A DNA stretch of 64,000 bases from Ancylobacter vacuolatus. GTDB lineage: Bacteria; Pseudomonadota; Alphaproteobacteria; Rhizobiales; Xanthobacteraceae. The notes below the pieces were generated by a model that saw only the letters and a program-made list of their open reading frames with translations, made no database searches and was not told the origin of the DNA. The first letter of the stretch is position 1; every line of letters begins with the position of its first letter. A program made the translations under genes and the position numbers. Below, one piece after another: positions 4,723 through 12,029 of the stretch. The stretch lies in contig NZ_JAUSUH010000004.1 of assembly GCF_030813595.1 (NCBI RefSeq), forward strand, positions 310,001 through 374,000, read 5' to 3'.

Positions 4723-5284
4723 CCGCGCAGCATCCGTGTGTAATCCTGCGTGGGGTGGGCGAAGATCGCTTCGGTCTCGCCAAATTCGACGATCTTGCCG
4801 TGGCGCATCACCGCGACATTGTGGGCGAGCGAGCGCACCGAGTTGAGGTCGTGGGTGATGAACAGCGCCGACATGCCGATCTCGGCCTGAAGGTCGCGCA
4901 CTAGGTCGATGATCTGCGCCCGCACCCGGATGTCGAGCGCGGTGGTCGGCTCGTCGAACACCACGAAGTCCGGCCCGGTGGCCAGCGCACGGGCAATGCC
5001 GATGCGCTTCTGCTCGCCGGCGGTCAGTTCGTGCGGATAGGCGTCGGCAAGGCTGAGCGGCAGGTGGACCAGATCGAGCAGCTGCCGCACCCGGCGCTCC
5101 CGTCCCTTTCCATCGATGCCGGGGGTCGAGCCGCAGCGGCTGGGCGATCAGCGCGCGCACCGGCCAACGCGGGTTCGTCGATCGCCCGCACCACCTCGGT
5201 GCCGCCGGCTATGGGGAAGAACTTCTCCAGCCGACGCACGTCGAGCAGCGGCCTTGCATGCGCCGCCTCCGCCCGGCCCTGCAT
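4723..5284 (-). pseudogene. Oligopeptide ABC transporter ATPase remnant (DppF-like)
   Basis: A plausible start at 5284 follows a GAGGGG ribosome site and opens a DppF-type N-terminus (LLDVRRLEKFFPIAGG, then VVRAID). The following roughly 75 residues, including Walker A and the Q-loop, are absent. A second frame resumes at VRALIAQPLRLDPRHRWKG, and a further one-base shift near 5108 moves to the frame with RQLLDLVHLPLSLADAYPHE. The signature is LTAGEQKRIGIARAL, Walker B is FVVFDEPTTALD and the H-loop is ALFITHDLNSV. The C-terminus stops at YTRMLR where a deletion joins the epimerase remnant. Without Walker A it cannot hydrolyse ATP. Confidence 0.8.
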
Positions 5285-5944
5285 CGTCCCCTCGCTTTGC
5301 CCCGTCCTCGGCGTCGGGCGCACCCGCGCCGCATCCAGCAGCGTGCGGCTGTAGTCGTCGCGCGGACCTTGGAGGAAACGGCCGACCTCGCCCAGCTCGA
5401 CGATGCGCCCGCCCTTCATGATCGCCACGCGGTCGCAGCAATGGGCGATGATGCCGAGGTCATGGGTGATGAGCACCACCCCGGCACCGTGTTCGCGGCA
5501 GCGCTTCACCAGGAGATCGAGCACCTGCACCTGAATGGTGGCATCAAGGCCGAGCGTGGTGTCATCGGCCAGAACGATATCGGGATTGGCCACCATCGCC
5601 ATGGCGATGACCGCGCGCTGGGCCATGCCGCCGGAATGCTCGTGCCGATAGGCCTTGGCCCGGCGCTCGGGATTGACGATGCCGAATTTGGCCAGAAGAT
5701 CCGCCGCCGCCCACGCCCCCCGGTGGCCGCAGGCGCGATGCGCCCGCATCACCCGGGCGATCTGCCCCCCCACCGTCGCCACCGGGTCGAGCAGCGCCTT
5801 GGCGTTGGTGCCGATGAGGGCGATGCGGGCCCCGCGCAGCTTGCCCTGCTCCGCCGCGCTGAGCCCGAGCACCGTGGCGCCGTCGAGCCGGATGTCGCCC
5901 TCGACGATGCGCCCGCCCTCGGGCAGCAGGTCGAGCAGGCTGCG
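5285..5944 (-). pseudogene. Oligopeptide ABC transporter ATPase remnant (DppD-like)
   Basis: The frame starts abruptly at RSLLDLLPEGGRIVEGDI, a point normally just after Walker A, because it is fused in frame to the DppC remnant. It then shows a degraded Q-loop region (IALIGTNAKALLDPVATVG), the signature HSGGMAQRAVIAMAMVANP, a Walker B with an altered residue (DIVLADDTTLGLDA, where the family has DEPT) and the H-loop VVLITHDLGIIA. The C-terminal oligopeptide-transporter extension (DDYSRTLLDAARV) has no stop codon and reads into the DppF start. Walker A is lost and Walker B is mutated, so it is inactive. Confidence 0.8.
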
Positions 5945-6205
5945 CGCCACGGCGGTCAGCGAGATCAGCAGGTTGATGCGGGTGGCGTAGATGACGCGGG
6001 CACAGATATCCATGCCCGACACATCGGTGCCGAACCAGTGCGCCAGCGAGGGCGGCTCCAGCGAGGCCAGAGGATCGGCCTCGACAGGCGAATAGGAGGT
6101 GAGCCAAGGCGAGAAAAGGATGGCGATGACCTGCAGCGCCAGCAGCGCCAGCCCGACGACCGCGGCGGGATGGCGGCTGAGATAGCGCATGAACTCCGCC
6201 CTCAT
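5945..6205 (-). pseudogene. Oligopeptide ABC permease fragment (DppC-like, N-terminus only)
   Basis: The ATG at 6205 overlaps the DppB stop (ATGA, 6202-6205), the original operon arrangement. About 87 residues remain. They comprise the N-terminal cytoplasmic segment, the first membrane helix (VVGLALLALQVIAILF), the HWFGTDVSGMDICARVIYATR segment typical of DppC, and the start of helix two (INLLISLTAVA). The frame then passes without interruption into the DppD remnant. Around 200 residues holding the remaining helices and the EAA loop are deleted. Confidence 0.82.
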
Positions 6206-7254
6206 ACCCGGATCCTGGGATCGGCAAGTTCGTAGAGAATGTCGACCACGGTGCAGACGACCAGGATGAAGGCAGCGGCCACCAGCACGAAGCCCTGCAG
6301 CGCGGGATAGTCGCTGTTCACCACCGCCTGCACCGCATACTGCCCCAGCCCGCCCCAAGCGAAGATCGTCTCCACCAGCACCGCCGCCCCAAGCAGAAAG
6401 CCGACCATGAAGCCGACCAGGGTGATGATCGGCGGCAGGCAATTGCGCAGCGCGATCCGGCGGATGGATCGCTCCGGCAGGCCCGAGGCGCGGGCGTGGC
6501 GGATGAAATCGCTGCGGTAGACATCGGCAAACACCGTGTTGGTCATCTTCATCAGCGCGCTGGCATTGACGATGGCGAGCGTGAGCACCGGCAGCACGAG
6601 GCGGCCGACCGAGGAGAAGAAGGCCTGCGGGTTGCCGGCGATGACGCTGTCGATGGTGTAGAAGCCGGTGACAGTGGGGGGCGGCGTGACGAAGGTGTCG
6701 ATGCGCCCGAACGTCGCCGCCGCCCAGCCGAGCATTTAAAAGAAGAAGTGGATCAGCAGCAGGCCGATCCAGAAATCCGGGATGGCGCCGGCGGCGAGGC
6801 CGTAGATCCGGCTGCCGATATCTACCGCCCCGCCCGGCCGCGCCACCGAGACGATCGCCAGCGTCACGCCGATGAGGATGGTGTGGATCATGGCATAGGT
6901 GATCAGCTCCAGCGTCGCCGAGGCGCGTTCCAGAAGGTCGGAAACCACAGGCTGGGAGGTGAAGATCGAGGTGCGGAGATCGCCGTGCAGGGCGTTCCAG
7001 ACATAGCGCAGGAACTGGTCCCACACCGGCAGGTCTAGCCCCAGCCGATCGCGAAAGGCGGCGATGGTCTCGGGCGTCGCCATGTTGCCCAGCAGCAGCA
7101 GCGCCGGATTGCCCGCCAGCAGGCGTACCAGCAGGAACGTCACCATCATCACGCCGAAGAGCTGGGGCAACAGCATGAACAGGCGGCTGGCGACGATTTT
7201 CAGCGGGCGGGGAACGATGCCCCAGAACCCGGCGAGGCGGACGGCGACAGTCAT
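6202..7254 (-). pseudogene. Oligopeptide ABC permease with in-frame stop (DppB-like)
   Basis: The gene is nearly full length but interrupted by TAA at 6736-6738. The frame before the stop ends FWIGLLLIHFFF and the same frame resumes at once with MLGWAAATFGRIDTF, so a single base change could account for it. Before the stop are the first helix (FMLLPQLFGVMMVTFLLVRL) and the periplasmic region with LGLDLPVWDQFLRYV. After it come the permease loop HARASGLPERSIRRIALRN and the terminal helices, ending DPRIRV. The start at 7254 (MTVAVRLAG) is chosen because the frame upstream of it is not family-like. Apart from the stop codon it is the least damaged transporter gene here. Confidence 0.82.
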
Positions 7255-7306
7255 GCGGGGGTCGTTCAGGGCTCGTGCGACCTTGGGGGGAGAGGCGCGG
7301 CGGGGA

Positions 7307-7324
7307 GCCCGGCATCTGCCGGGC
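7307..7324. other. Hairpin between binding-protein and permease remnants
   Basis: A perfect 8-bp inverted repeat (GCCCGGCA / TGCCGGGC) with a 2-nt loop lies between the dppA-like and dppB-like pseudogenes. Such hairpins often follow the binding-protein gene in ABC operons and stabilise its message. No T-run follows, so it is not a clear terminator. Confidence 0.5.
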
Positions 7325-7346
7325 CCCTCGGGCGAGCGGCGGCGGC

Positions 7347-7902
7347 TCACTCCTTGTACATGTCGTAGGAAGCGTTGCCGTTCGGGGTGTACCAGGAGTA
7401 GCCCTTCACAGTGGCCCGCGTGGCCAGCTGGTAGGCGGGGTTCATCAGGAACACCCAGGGCGCGCCCTCCATGATGATCTGCTGCACCCGCTTCATGTCG
7501 ACCAGGCGCTTGGCCTCGTCGGTGCTGGTGAGACCGGCATTAATGAGAGCGTCGACCTCTTCGCTCTTGAACGTCGAGTCGTTGATCGCCGAGCCGCTGT
7601 TGAGCCAGAGATTGGCGACATAGGCCGCGTCCGGCATGGTCGCCAAGTCGTAGAGGATGCGACCGTCGCCCTTCTTCTGGGCGTAGCCGAGCAGGCGCTC
7701 ATTGACGTTGCGGCGCACCTCGTGGCCGGCCCGGTGGGCAGGTTTTCCTGGTCGAGCGATCCGGGGTGCCCGGGGCGGCGACCACCAGCGTGGTCTTGGC
7801 GTCCTGCGCCTGCGCCGGCAAAGGCGCGGCGAGCAGCGCCGCGAGGAGGCCGGCACCGACGCCGCCGGCCGGCCATTGTCCCTCGAAGAGGTCCAACCAC
7901 AA
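7347..7902 (-). pseudogene. Oligopeptide-binding protein remnant (SBP family 5)
   Basis: A signal-peptide-like segment (GLLAALLAAPLPAQAQ) followed by TTLVVAAPGTP is in one frame, and SLDQENLPTGPA continues in a second. EVRRNVNERLLGY is in a third and runs directly into AQKKGDGRILYDLATMPDA, which belongs near the C-terminus of this family. About 330 central residues, including most of the ligand-binding cleft, are therefore missing, with two further frameshifts near 7740-7790. The C-terminal 125 residues to SYDMYKE at 7347 are intact. This was the first gene of the decayed transporter operon. Confidence 0.8.
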
Positions 7903-7994: not shown

Positions 7995-8711
7995 CTAGCC
8001 CTGTGCCACCGGATGGATGTGCGGGTGCGCGTGCGTATGGCTGTGCGGGTGGGTGTGCAGCGCGGCCGGGGCGAGATGGCCGTTTTCGATCGCCATCGCC
8101 CGTGTCGCCAGCTCGGCGATGAAGCCGTCATCATGCGACACCAGCAGCATGGCGCCAGGAAAAGCGTGCAGCGCCGCCCGCAGCCGCTTTCCGTTTTCGG
8201 TGTCGACGCCGTTAGTGGGCTCGTCCAGCAGCAGCACGTCCGGCTGCATCGCCAGCAGCCCGGCGAGGCAGACAAGGCGCTTCTCGCCACCGGAAAGCCG
8301 ATGGCTGATGCGCGGGGCGAGAGCGTGGATGCCGAGCATGGCCAGCACCTCCTCGGCCCGGCGAAAGGCCTCCGCCTGGGTACAGCCAAGATTGAGCGGG
8401 CCGAAGGCGACATCCTCGATCACGCTGGGGCAGAACAGCTGGTCGTCGCTGTCCTGGAACAGATAGCCGATGCGAGGGCGCAGGGCGCGGAAGTCGCGTT
8501 CGCTCCGGCAGGATGTGCCGAACAGCCGGACCTGCCCGGCGCTCGGATGTTCCAGCCCGACAAGGGTGCGCAGCAGCGTGGTCTTGCCCGCCCCGTTCGG
8601 GCCGACAATGGCCAGCCGCTCGCCTGCGGCAAGGGCAAGGTTGACCGTGCGCAGCACGGCGGCGCCGTCGCGGGCGACGGTGACACCCTCAAGGGCGAGC
8701 AGCGCGCTCAT
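7995..8711 (-). CDS. nikO: Nickel/cobalt ECF-type transporter ATPase NikO/CbiO
   Basis: A 238-residue cytoplasmic ATPase that energises the Nik/Cbi metal importer. It has Walker A GPNGAGKT at residues 37-44, the Q-loop in YLFQDSDDQLF (typical of CbiO), the signature LSGGEKR, Walker B VLLLDEPTNGVD and the switch His in LLVSHDDGF. The final 21 residues are strikingly His-rich (HTHPHSHTHAHPHIH), consistent with metal binding or storage at the cytoplasmic exit of the transporter. The start codon overlaps the nikQ stop (ATGA). Operator type and gene order favour nickel over cobalt. Confidence 0.92.
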   Translation of the reverse strand: MSALLALEGVTVARDGAAVLRTVNLALAAGERLAIVGPNGAGKTTLLRTLVGLEHPSAGQVRLFGTSCRSERDFRALRPRIGYLFQDSDDQLFCPSVIEDVAFGPLNLGCTQAEAFRRAEEVLAMLGIHALAPRISHRLSGGEKRLVCLAGLLAMQPDVLLLDEPTNGVDTENGKRLRAALHAFPGAMLLVSHDDGFIAELATRAMAIENGHLAPAALHTHPHSHTHAHPHIHPVAQG

Positions 8712-9439
8712 AGCCGGTCCGCCATCGTCACCGCGAGACCGAAGGCCAGCGCGGCGCAGAGGCCCGCCCAGTCCCGCGCCGTGGGGGAAGGCGGCGCCAG
8801 ATATGGAAAGCGGCCTTCATAGCCCCGGCAGCGCATCGCCTCCTCCACACGCTGCGCCCGCTCCAGTGCCCGCACCAGCAGCATGCCGAGCAGATGGCCA
8901 TAGCTGCGCCAGCTGTGGCGGTTCGTGCCGGGGCGGAAGCCGCGCATTCGCATCGCTTCCTGCAGCCGCCGCGCCTCGTCGCGGATCAGCGAGAGATAGC
9001 GCGCCGTGAGCACGAACAGGCGCACGAGAACCTCCGGCACATGAAGCGCGCGAAGCGCGGCGCCGAGCCGCACCGGCTCGACCGCGCCCAGCAGCGCCGT
9101 GAGCGCCAGCACTGAGGCGGAAACCTTGGCGGCGATCAGCAAAGCGCGCTCCACGCCCTCGACACTGGCGGTCAGCGGGCCGAGGGAAAACAGCGGCTGG
9201 CCCGCCATCGTGAAGGGAAGCGTCGCGAACAGCAGCAGCAGGAATCCCTCGACATGCAGCAGCCGCCGCCAGAGCCGGCCATCGGGCCGGCGCCAGGCGG
9301 CAACCAGCCCGGCCACGGCGAGCGCCGCCAGCGCCACGGGGAGCGTGCGCAGCTGCGACAGGCAGGCGATGGCGATAAAGGCGGCGACGAGGCGCAGGCG
9401 CAGGTCGCACACGGGAACCTGCGGGACCGCCACCGTCAT
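8708..9439 (-). CDS. nikQ: Nickel/cobalt transporter transmembrane protein NikQ/CbiQ
   Basis: A 243-residue integral membrane protein, the T component of the group II ECF transporter, with several hydrophobic helices. It has the coupling motifs expected for CbiQ: EAMRMRGFRPG near residue 167 and EEAMRCRGYEG near 205, the conserved A-R-G boxes that dock on the ATPase. The start at 9439 overlaps the nikL stop (ATGA), and its own stop overlaps the nikO start, so the genes are translationally coupled. Confidence 0.9.
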   Translation of the reverse strand: MTVAVPQVPVCDLRLRLVAAFIAIACLSQLRTLPVALAALAVAGLVAAWRRPDGRLWRRLLHVEGFLLLLFATLPFTMAGQPLFSLGPLTASVEGVERALLIAAKVSASVLALTALLGAVEPVRLGAALRALHVPEVLVRLFVLTARYLSLIRDEARRLQEAMRMRGFRPGTNRHSWRSYGHLLGMLLVRALERAQRVEEAMRCRGYEGRFPYLAPPSPTARDWAGLCAALAFGLAVTMADRL

Positions 9440-9990
9440 GAGCGGCGTCCGCGCGCCCACAGGCCGATGCCGGCGAGGCCCAGAATGAGGAAAACTCCGG
9501 AAAGGATGTCGGCATAGCGCAGGCGCGCATCCAGCTGCTCGATCCGCTCCATCAGCGGTGCCAGCTGCCGCTGCACCGCCGCCTCGACCAGTGCGGCAAG
9601 GCGCGCATCGGCCTCGCCGCCGGCCGGGGCCGATGCGTCCGTCGCAAGCACCGGCGGGGTCGCGCGCGCGGCCCCCCCGAAGCGTGCGGCCGGCAGCGTC
9701 ACCGAGGCCACATGCCCCTCGCGCGTGTCGACCGTCACCGTGGCGTCCGTGGGCGGCTGCGGCGCGGTGAAGGCGAAGCGCCCCTCCCCGTCCGTCGTGC
9801 CGGCAGCGATCGGCGCGCCGGCGGTGTCCTTCGCCACCCACGCGGTCTGCGCCGCGCGGCCGCCGCCGATGAAGAAGGCGTAGCCCTTCACCTCGCCGCC
9901 CTCCACCGTGGCGAAGACCTTCAGCTTGTGCGCCTGCGCCGGGCCGGAAAAGGCCAGCGCCAGCAGCAACACTGTCAGGAAACGGATCAT
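9436..9990 (-). CDS. nikL: NikL-type periplasmic/membrane accessory protein
   Basis: 184 residues. It has an N-terminal signal peptide (FLTVLLLALAFSGPAQA), then the mature start AHKLKVFATVEGGEVKGYAFF typical of NikL/CbiL-like proteins, a beta-rich domain, a short coiled segment and one C-terminal membrane helix (ADILSGVFLILGLAGIGLW). NikL replaces NikN in NikKMLQO importers and is needed for metal capture. The start at 9990 follows the signal-peptide logic and overlaps the nikM stop. Confidence 0.82.
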   Translation of the reverse strand: MIRFLTVLLLALAFSGPAQAHKLKVFATVEGGEVKGYAFFIGGGRAAQTAWVAKDTAGAPIAAGTTDGEGRFAFTAPQPPTDATVTVDTREGHVASVTLPAARFGGAARATPPVLATDASAPAGGEADARLAALVEAAVQRQLAPLMERIEQLDARLRYADILSGVFLILGLAGIGLWARGRRS

Positions 9991-10601
9991 GGCGCGACCG
10001 GACGCAGCGCCTCGGGCTGCACGCGGGCGAGGAAGGAGACGATCGCGGCGGTGATGAAGGCCTCCACGAGGGCGAGCGGCAGATAGGTGGCGATCACCAC
10101 ACGGGCCGCCGGCGTATAATCGCTCGACGACAGCCACAGCGACAGGGCGACGAGCCCTCCCGTTCCCAGCACCGCCAGCCCCCCGGCCAGCGCGCCGGCC
10201 GCCAGCCGCACCGAAGGCCGCGCGGTGGCGCGGATCAGCGGCCCCAGCAGCAGCCCGCACAACACCCCCGGCAGCGCGATATTCACCGTGTTCACCCCGA
10301 GCGTCGTGAGCCCGCCAAAACCGAACAGCAGCGCTTGCAACAACAGGGCCACCAGCACGGCGAGAAAGGCGGCGGTGCCGAGCATTACCCCCATCAGCCC
10401 CGCCAGCAGCAGGTGCACGCTCGACGGCCCCACCGGCACGGCCACCAGCGACCCCGCGAAGAATGCCGCCGCCAGGATGGCGGTGCGCGGGATCATCCGG
10501 TCGTCGAGCCGCCGCAGCCCCAGCGCCACGCCGGCGGCGGCCAGGACGCCGCCACTGACGAGCACCGGCGCGGAGAGGAGGCCGTCGGGAATATGCGCCA
10601 T
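9987..10601 (-). CDS. nikM: Nickel/cobalt substrate-capture membrane protein NikM/CbiM
   Basis: 204 residues, multi-spanning. This is the S component that binds the metal ion. The N-terminus MAHIPDG is the hallmark metal site of CbiM/NikM, in which the N-terminal amine and His coordinate nickel or cobalt; the loop VGPSSVHLLLAGL carries further conserved residues. It lies 4 bp after nikK and overlaps nikL. The His sits at position 3 (M-A-H), as the family requires for square-planar Ni coordination. Confidence 0.9.
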   Translation of the reverse strand: MAHIPDGLLSAPVLVSGGVLAAAGVALGLRRLDDRMIPRTAILAAAFFAGSLVAVPVGPSSVHLLLAGLMGVMLGTAAFLAVLVALLLQALLFGFGGLTTLGVNTVNIALPGVLCGLLLGPLIRATARPSVRLAAGALAGGLAVLGTGGLVALSLWLSSSDYTPAARVVIATYLPLALVEAFITAAIVSFLARVQPEALRPVAP

Positions 10602-10605
10602 TCGC

Positions 10606-11409
10606 CTACTTCCCGGCGCCCATGTTGTTCCCCGCGCTCATGTCAGTCGCCTTCACCCAGATCAGCGCGCCGTCTTCCACCGGCACCTCTTTGCCCTCGG
10701 GCGAGGTCATCGGCGTGTCGCCGTCCAGCAGCGCGGCGAAGCCCCACCAGCCGGCGCGCGGCATGGCATAGGTGAAGGTGCCATTGGCGTCAGCCTTGAT
10801 CACCTGCGTCACGAAAGCGTCGTTCGGCGGCGTCACCGTGCCGTCATTGATGAACTCGACCTCCACCTCGGCGAAGGGCACCGGCTTGCCGCCCTTCAGC
10901 ACGACGCCGGAGAAGAGATTGCCCGTCCACAGCCCGGTCGGGCGGGTGAGCGGCTGGATCTCCACCGGCAGCCCGACCAGTTCGTCCCAGCCCTCGCCCG
11001 AGGCGTAGCTGTCGACGATCACCTTGGAGTAGTGGACGATGTACTTGCCTTCCGAAGGCTCCCAATAGGGCTGCGGCTCGACATAGAAGATCGCCGCGCC
11101 CGGCTCCTTCAGCTCATAGGCGAGCGTCCAGGCGCTCTTGCCGTCGACCGGCTTTTCGCTGATCTGGCCGAGCAGGTCGGTGGTGGTGCCGCCCGCCAAC
11201 ACACCCACCTTGGCCGGCTTCTTCATCTCCATCACCGGCCCGCCCTCGACCGGATGGGTGAACACCATATCGATATTCACCGTCCCGCCCTCCGGCAGCA
11301 CGTCGGCAGAGGGGATGATCTCCTGGAAATGCGCCAGCGCCGGCCCCGCCCCGAGCGGCAGGACAAGGGCAGCGAAAACGACGAGACGGGCCGGAAAGCA
11401 GGTGGGCAT
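10606..11409 (-). CDS. nikK: NikK-type DUF4198 periplasmic protein
   Basis: 267 residues with a clear signal peptide (VVFAALVLPLGAGPALA) and a mature N-terminus beginning AHFQEIIPSADVL. His at the second mature position is conserved in DUF4198/NikK proteins and is presumed to bind nickel in the periplasm. The remainder is two beta-sandwich-like regions. It is the first gene of the nikKMLQO operon, and the NikR operator lies 15 bp upstream of its ATG, so it is probably repressed directly. Confidence 0.88.
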   Translation of the reverse strand: MPTCFPARLVVFAALVLPLGAGPALAHFQEIIPSADVLPEGGTVNIDMVFTHPVEGGPVMEMKKPAKVGVLAGGTTTDLLGQISEKPVDGKSAWTLAYELKEPGAAIFYVEPQPYWEPSEGKYIVHYSKVIVDSYASGEGWDELVGLPVEIQPLTRPTGLWTGNLFSGVVLKGGKPVPFAEVEVEFINDGTVTPPNDAFVTQVIKADANGTFTYAMPRAGWWGFAALLDGDTPMTSPEGKEVPVEDGALIWVKATDMSAGNNMGAGK

Positions 11410-11423
11410 GCGGCACCCCTTTT

Positions 11424-11451
11424 GTATGAATTAAGTGAATAAAAATCATAC
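11424..11451. promoter_or_regulatory. Perfect NikR operator between nikK and nikR
   Basis: GTATGA (11424-11429), 16 bases, then TCATAC (11446-11451): an exact match to the operator GTATGA-N16-TCATAC described for E. coli NikR. It lies upstream of nikK (start 11409) and about 105 bp from the divergent nikR, in an AT-rich patch that would hold the nikK promoter. Binding here should block nikK transcription. Confidence 0.92.
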
Positions 11452-11555: not shown

Positions 11556-12029
11556 ATGCAGCGGATCACCATCGCCATCGACGACGATCTGGCCGCGCAG
11601 CTGGATGGCTTCATCCAGGAGAGCGGTGCCGCGAACCGCTCCGAGGCGATACGCGATCTGGTGCGTCGGGGCCTTTCCGCGCGTTCGGACGGACCGGCAC
11701 AGGCCTCCTGCTTCGGCGTCATCAGCTGCGCCATCGACCAGTCGGTGCGCAATCTCGCGGCACGGGTGCCCCAGGGCCGGCTCGACCGGCACGACCAGAC
11801 CGTCGCCGCCCTCTCGGTGCCGCTCGATCACTCGACCTCGGTCGATGTAACGGTGATGCGCGGGCAGGTCGGCGACATCGCCACCTATGCGCAGGCGCTG
11901 TTTCTGGAACGCGGCGTCATGCATGGCGCGCTCAGCCTCATCCCGGTGGCCGAGGACAAGGCCCATCACGTCCACAACCAGGGCTCCCCGCACGCGCACA
12001 CGCATCTGCGGGTGAAGAGCGGATTCTAG
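11556..12029 (+). CDS. nikR: NikR-family ribbon-helix-helix regulator lacking canonical Ni ligands
   Basis: 157 residues that align with E. coli NikR without gaps from residue 1 to about 130. The DNA-binding strand MQRITIA keeps Arg3 and Thr5, while Thr7 is Ala. In E. coli the square-planar nickel site is His76, His87, His89 and Cys95; here these positions are Leu76, Ser87, Pro89 and Ser95. A C-terminal tail absent from E. coli NikR is His-rich (HHVHNQGSPHAHTH) and may supply a different metal site. It diverges from nikKMLQO and has a perfect operator. It is therefore an intact NikR by fold and target, but its metal sensing must differ. Its stop codon lies at the edge of a dispersed repeat. 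Confidence 0.88.
   Translation: MQRITIAIDDDLAAQLDGFIQESGAANRSEAIRDLVRRGLSARSDGPAQASCFGVISCAIDQSVRNLAARVPQGRLDRHDQTVAALSVPLDHSTSVDVTVMRGQVGDIATYAQALFLERGVMHGALSLIPVAEDKAHHVHNQGSPHAHTHLRVKSGF

Follow-up and report, generated by a model that had tools for sequence, protein, structure and literature searches.

The closest described relative of the protein analysed in this work is NikR of Escherichia coli (structures 1q5v and 2hza), in which nickel is coordinated by three residues from one monomer (His87, His89 and Cys95) and by His76 from another, as described in PMC7055735. In the same paper, the selectivity of NikR is attributed to coordination number together with geometry, namely to four-coordinate planar nickel in a His3Cys site, and the operator, located beside a nickel importer, is given as GTATGA-N16-TCATAC (PMC7055735). 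NikR of Helicobacter pylori has the same fold and, unlike the protein described here, keeps His3Cys; extra metal sites are present in its crystals, and their relevance is unclear according to PMC9860126. In Paracoccus yeei, nikR insertion mutants lose urease activity (PMC11578231), but the NikR of this bacterium (L162, from a plasmid record) is HHHC (residues at positions 76, 87, 89 and 95, a notation used from here on), so that this report provides no functional evidence for the proteins described below. No account of such a NikR was found among the titles and abstracts listed in searches of an open-access collection, a scope outside of which most subscription papers lie.

The window, i.e. 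the whole stretch of 64,000 nucleotides of Ancylobacter vacuolatus DNA that was analysed (contig NZ_JAUSUH010000004.1, positions 310,001 to 374,000), contains at 11556..12029 (plus strand) an intact open reading frame with an ATG start that encodes a NikR of 157 amino acids, the one NikR match in this genome. The protein passed the cut-off of the NikR equivalog NF002815 (123.8 bits, cut-off 83) and, in Pfam, those of RHH_1 (31.8 bits against 20.5) and NikR_C (55.5 against 22), and fell below those of TIGR02793 (119.9 against 175.45) and NF003381 (81.4 against 105). With phmmer, a gap-free alignment to E. coli NikR (1q5v, E=1.5e-24) was obtained over its residues 1-131, including the ribbon-helix-helix DNA-binding part (approximately residues 1-45, 11556..11690, with RHH_1 matching residues 3-39) and two residues of the low-affinity/K+ site defined in PMC7055735, E30 (11643-11645) and D34 (11655-11657), which are retained. 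At the four ligand positions, however, the protein has Leu76 (11781..11783), Ser87 (11814..11816), Pro89 (11820..11822) and Ser95 (11838..11840), according to both the phmmer alignment and a multiple alignment. These replacements had been reported in a preliminary description of this DNA, and both the residues and the ligand numbering, which agrees with that of PMC7055735, were borne out. A misalignment of the ligand positions was ruled out by the gap-free alignment, and a lone pseudogene or a sequencing error by the presence of the same state in relatives whose identity to the window protein ranges from 97% to 46%. The top Foldseek matches of a predicted model were NikR chains, and most of the isolated C-terminal domains from E. 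coli gave rmsd values of 1.9-2.5 Å. The protein is thus a NikR by its domains (RHH plus NikR_C), fold, operator and likely role, but lacks the square-planar His3Cys ligands that define the family.

Divergent from nikR, and where E. coli has nikABCDE, the window holds on the minus strand the genes of a NikKMLQO ECF transporter, complete and in order: nikK (DUF4198, 10606..11409; PF10670, E=3e-58), nikM (CbiM family, 9987..10601; PF01891, E=2.9e-56), nikL (9436..9990, start approximate; NF058648 NikL family, E=1e-53, over residues 98-273 of a longer open reading frame), nikQ (8708..9442, start approximate; PF02361 CbiQ, E=1.3e-32, and TIGR02454, E=3.2e-39) and the ATPase gene nikO (7995..8711; PF00005, E=3e-33, and TIGR01166 cbiO, E=9.6e-53 although below its cut-off). 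By inference, the substrate of this transporter would be nickel; matches to urease alpha and NiFe hydrogenase are present in the same genome. Adjoining nikO, the region 5024-7856 (minus strand) contains pieces of a peptide/nickel-type ABC transporter, probably decayed, comprising permease parts, an OppC_N domain and part of an ATPase in one frame, and a partial frame with no Pfam match. The possibility of a cobalamin riboswitch acting on nikKMLQO was discarded, the window having zero Rfam matches. Elsewhere in this genome, a CbiM-family gene (L147:2290-2997, minus strand) lies directly behind a cobalamin riboswitch and likely represents a separate cobalt route; an outer-membrane-receptor-like gene was seen by eye further on from it.

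The perfect operator that the preliminary description had noted is indeed an exact GTATGA-N16-TCATAC, located at 11424..11451 between the two divergent genes, 14 bases from nikK and 104 from nikR. It is the single exact site in the 5.02-Mb genome, with approximately 0.03 expected by chance according to the base composition of the window. When up to three mismatches were permitted, the window gave three matches with 5.7 expected, so that only the exactness of the operator counts. In a promoter-like match ahead of nikK, the -10-like hexamer TATGAT falls within the operator, an overlap that is consistent with repression, a promoter-like match not being proof of it.

A survey of NikR homologues revealed a whole clade of such proteins. 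Among 30 genomes of the genus, 15 had the variant NikR and nine a canonical one (G012 has both), with no match in seven. When GTDB contigs were scanned with the window protein, 27 loci were retrieved, each of them in the variant state; they come from Ancylobacter, Kaistia, Methylorubrum/Methylobacterium, Mesorhizobium, Breoghania, Afifella and Pseudoroseomonas, as well as from several Rhodobacterales and other alphaproteobacteria. At the level of the order (397 genomes, 119 matches), 26 variants were found among the 70 matches whose residues were read, the other 49 scoring below 97 bits each; the variants had at least 46% identity and at least 148 bits, and the rest at most 44% (except for a 41-residue piece) and at most 111 bits. 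With a profile of the clade, 17 of the 385 genomes of a class sample had matches, corresponding to the source genome, 12 HHHC proteins, one RQPY and one RHHT (G145, L168), plus those of G064 and G799, which lie outside the residue counts; in both the order and the class profile scans at most nine candidates were scored per genome, and some may have been missed. No relative was confirmed in a scan of viral_contigs with the alignment of the clade.

In a tree of 98 rows, from which near-copies had been omitted and which was built after excluding columns 76, 79, 87, 89, 92, 95 and 123 and the tail, the 38 variant rows formed a single group with 100/100 support and a long stem, nested among the canonical rows under midpoint rooting. 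Judging from these comparisons, the loss of the ligands is a clade-wide alphaproteobacterial state and not the oddity of a single strain; the initial observation is therefore confirmed, and is broader than first stated.

The association between this clade and the operator was analysed at several levels. Within the genus, the exact operator was found in 13 of the 15 genomes with a variant NikR, as opposed to 0 of the 15 that lack it (Fisher p=1.8e-6, with kinship uncorrected), while four genomes with a canonical NikR (G004, G018, G022, G023) had a site with one mismatch, whose spacer was different and more palindromic. In the order, where the scan covered the variant genomes with the reversed pattern as control, 21 of 24 had the exact operator, two a one-mismatch site only, and one had none; one-mismatch matches elsewhere were approximately at the level of the control and hence uninformative. 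Of the 57 variants, 31 had an exact site in the 400 bases upstream of nikR, five had a site with one mismatch and three a site with two, and in the remaining 18, some of which have a site on the importer side, there was none with fewer than three mismatches; an exact site was present in the same interval in 4 of 54 canonical nikR genes. Where nikR is located away from the importer (G001, G029, G253, G158), the exact site still precedes nikKMLQO. Additional exact operators precede NikA-like genes in G112, G225 and G301, and others, in G006, G177, G344, G358 and one in G301, have no recognised nickel gene close by. The second exact operator of G006 (L128:5001-5028) lies between two divergent gene groups, again with no recognised nickel gene. 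The Roseomonas and Pseudoroseomonas variant loci have degenerate operators only (two and three mismatches, respectively), and in the locus DNA examined from Methylorubrum/Methylobacterium, Kaistia and L052 neither nikK nor an operator with fewer than two mismatches was found.

With respect to gene neighbourhood, NikK matches were present near 44 of 66 variant loci, some genomes being counted twice. In three genomes of the genus (G006, G012 and G025), nikR-nikKMLQO continues directly into a urease cluster, a layout established by eye in which urease alpha was confirmed with PF00449; in G006, Pfam identified urease alpha, UreF, a CobW/HypB/UreG-type GTPase and an ammonium transporter. A fourth case is plasmid p1318-3 of Roseomonas marmotae, with urease a few genes away from the variant nikR and the two-mismatch operator mentioned above. 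The annotated order in this plasmid is ABC ATPase, cbiQ, a hypothetical gene, cbiM, DUF4198 and the variant nikR, followed by an SLC13 permease, an ammonium transporter, a urea transporter, ureD, ureG, ureF, a hypothetical gene, two CrcB genes, and urease alpha, beta and gamma. The same strain has on p1318-4 an HHHC NikR beside nikABC. The protein from R. marmotae (WP_336512714.1) carries the annotation "nickel-responsive transcriptional regulator NikR", which therefore covers proteins without the known site. CrcB-type genes immediately follow urease alpha in urease clusters linked to this NikR, two being annotated as such (L160:19353-20129) and similar frames having been noted by eye in L143-L145. 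In four further loci (L155, L156, L157 and L159), the variant nikR adjoins a gene for a solute-binding protein of family 5; four such proteins compared with NCBIfam had NikA as their top match, with 95-116 bits, far below the cut-off of 393. Since urease matches were found in all 30 genomes of the genus, the presence of urease does not discriminate, and the argument is physical linkage. The nikKMLQO genes, the four urease-linked loci, the E. coli-type operator and the existence of a separate riboswitch-linked CbiM favour nickel as the signal. That the variant NikR regulates nickel uptake is well supported by this context, and it is likely that nickel is also what it senses.

Residue conservation was evaluated in 113 rows (57 variant, 44 canonical including E. 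coli, and 12 other), after merging identical proteins and dropping rows shorter than 110 amino acids, L025 among them. H87, H89 and C95 were absent from all 57 variants, which had been defined by Ser/Thr87, Pro89 and Ser/Ala/Thr/Val95, so that only other residues constitute independent support; His76 was kept in nine and gone in 48. The second shell was also altered, with residue 58 being Cys in 41 variants and Tyr in 16, residue 60 being Val, Ile, Leu or Cys in all 57, H62 replaced by Gln in 44, and E63 by Ser or Thr in 55; the canonical Y60, H62 and E63 are thus mostly changed. Thirteen residues were invariant in the 57 variants (E30, D34, C52, S57, R75, H79, H92, E118, R119, G120, H123, G124 and P130), with E30 and D34 being present in the 44 canonical rows as well. 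Three of them are candidates for a relocated site: His79 (11790..11792) and His92 (11829..11831), found in 36 and 28 of the 44 canonical rows, respectively, and His123 (11922..11924), a candidate ligand or structural residue found in 23 of the 44.

The C-terminal tail of the window protein (residues 132-157, 11949..12026) contains H138, H140, H148 and H150, invariant in 28 of 28 aligned rows. These were the sole four invariant tail columns in that alignment, and the probability that all of them would be His by chance is approximately 0.001; together with those of the core, seven of the nine His of the window protein are invariant in it. The arrangement H-x-H, 3-12 residues, H-x-H was found in the tails of 57 of 57 variants versus 5 of 44 canonical rows, and the length after residue 131 was 24-38 residues in the variants (mode 26) and 0 to 45 in the canonical proteins. 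The His-rich tail had been described as new. Its presence is clear, but it is not new in itself, since at least two tail His occur in 38 of the 44 canonical rows (the E. coli row, cut at residue 131, counting as none), and the number of tail His was discarded as a mark of the clade because canonical tails reach 16. In the sequences compared, what appears peculiar to the variants is the fixed spacing of the His and the near-fixed length. Modelling with AlphaFold predicted the tail as a beta hairpin both in the window protein and in L052, which is 50% identical to it, with the last core strand prolonged to residues 138 and 139, respectively, and the second strand starting at 146 and 147. Both models are shallow and monomeric, with mean pLDDT of 72 and 76, and derive from overlapping alignments, so that they are not independent; in that of the window protein, residues 68-76 had pLDDT below 50. 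Compared with E. coli NikR, therefore, the variant has, besides the four replaced ligands, seven invariant His elsewhere and a tail predicted as a hairpin.

In canonical NikR, nickel bridges two subunits, being bound by His76 in helix 3 of one and by His87, His89 and Cys95 in the strand pair of the next. His79, at the end of helix 3, would lie one turn beyond His76, and His92 would be in the turn that follows the strand where His87 and His89 were located, just past His89. This shift of about three residues on both sides means that a new site could use the same subunit interface. We presume from the topology of the beta-alpha-beta-beta-alpha-beta fold that the turn of the tail and the end of helix 3 are at one end of the subunit, and, by the same reasoning, that His92 and His123 are at the other, facing the neighbour. 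On this basis, an explanation can be proposed in which one ancestor of the alphaproteobacterial clade would have lost the square-planar His3Cys site and its surroundings while keeping the ordinary DNA-binding half and the operator. The replacement would be all-His or mainly His, built with His79, His92, probably His123 and the four tail His on the hairpin, and probably five- or six-coordinate instead of square planar. By binding at this new site, nickel would order helix 3 and fix the DNA-binding domains in position, with the repressor covering the -10 region of nikK.

We regard it as evenly balanced whether the window protein is, in this way, a nickel-responsive repressor of nikKMLQO with a sensor rebuilt from H79, H92, H123 and the tail His. 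The evolutionary counterpart, that the sensor site moved within the NikR fold, with a His-rich interface site taking over from the abandoned His3Cys while target, neighbours and role stayed unchanged, and with the RQPV and RQPY lineages described below having lost the site separately, is put forward tentatively, as something that may or may not hold. The preliminary description had left two options, a different sensor site formed by the tail or a response to something else. The first is preferred as the more probable of the two, since the neighbourhood favours nickel; the tail, however, is unlikely to act alone, given that H79, H92 and H123 of the core are invariant in the 57 members of the clade. 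It counts against the relocated sensor that H79, H92 and tail His are, in the rows aligned, common in canonical NikR too.

Ligand loss in other lineages has also to be considered. An RQPV NikR without H87, H89 and C95 and without a His tail was found beside nikL, nikQ and nikO (L177) and beside a NikL match (L172), and an RQPY protein with the same absences (L229) has an exact operator and lies beside a HupE-type gene. They branch in the tree separately from the variant clade, and look like a second and a third independent loss of the nickel site. Their persistence beside nickel genes without a His tail indicates that ligand loss need not be compensated by a tail. For these proteins there are three options: sensing by some other means, a low-affinity site that is sufficient, or no sensing at all.

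The second of these options can be extended to the variant clade, with nickel being detected nowhere but at the low-affinity site between the domains (E30, D34 and the backbone of residues 116, 118 and 121) and the tail storing or delivering metal. Octahedral nickel occupies that site in E. coli (PMC7055735), and E30 and D34 are conserved throughout the variant and canonical rows and kept in the tail-less ligand-less sequences inspected. Precisely because they are kept in every class examined, they are silent on the switch, and this explanation, which we consider unlikely, gives no strong reason for the invariance of H79, H92, H123 and the tail His. Alternatively, the variant could sense no metal and act constitutively, or in response to some other trigger, as a repressor that caps the expression of nikKMLQO. 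The complete disappearance of H87, H89 and C95, the loss of H76 in most variants, the changes in Y60, H62 and E63, and the ligand-less, tail-less relatives beside nickel genes, one of them with an exact operator, would fit such a role; yet it offers no evident reason for seven invariant His across so diverged a clade, and seems rather unlikely to us.

A response to another metal, cobalt or zinc, carried by the transporter as well, appears improbable. Sites made up of His alone are suitable for Co(II) or Zn(II). In addition, NikK1ML1QO systems have been tied to B12 genes in five proteobacteria (PMC2667541). Against this stand the urease linkage in four loci, the lack of a cobalamin riboswitch in the window and the separate riboswitch-linked CbiM of the same genome. 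Finally, a role of the tail as a buffer or chaperone for intracellular nickel, attached to the regulator but taking no part in DNA binding, is very improbable, for variable His-rich tails are indeed frequent in canonical NikRs, but the tail of the variant has a near-fixed length and fixed His spacing, and in the models it extends the core sheet in the form of a predicted hairpin.

Returning to the relocated sensor, a clade that keeps the operator and the neighbours but lacks H87, H89 and C95 offers a direct test of the need for planar geometry, and also a chance to see a metal site move inside a fold. The canonical proteins of the same genus (L016-L024) are a close term of comparison, being HHHC, with 38-43% identity to the window NikR in the eight recovered whole (the ninth was in two pieces). 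Some canonical alphaproteobacterial NikRs (L085, L091, L092, L094 and L095) adjoin nikK or nikM, as the variants do. In L131-L137, the canonical nikR of the genus adjoins a HupE/UreJ gene (by Pfam in L132, by eye in the others), and the neighbours seen by eye are presumably a GTP-cyclohydrolase-II/DUF1688 pair.

A partial loss of the canonical site was observed in another family, with HQHC, HQYC or QRPC (L163-L166 and L101), which has Gln or Arg at position 87. These proteins occupy branches separate from the variant clade and have a His-rich tail of more than 110 amino acids, for a total of 261-267; NikK matches are close by, except in L165, whose contig ends nearby. Lastly, a set of distant NikR-like proteins (L167-L171) keeps HVH, with Thr95 and with Arg or Ala at position 76. 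No recognised nickel gene was found near L167, L168 and L170, the last of which has an exact operator-like site.
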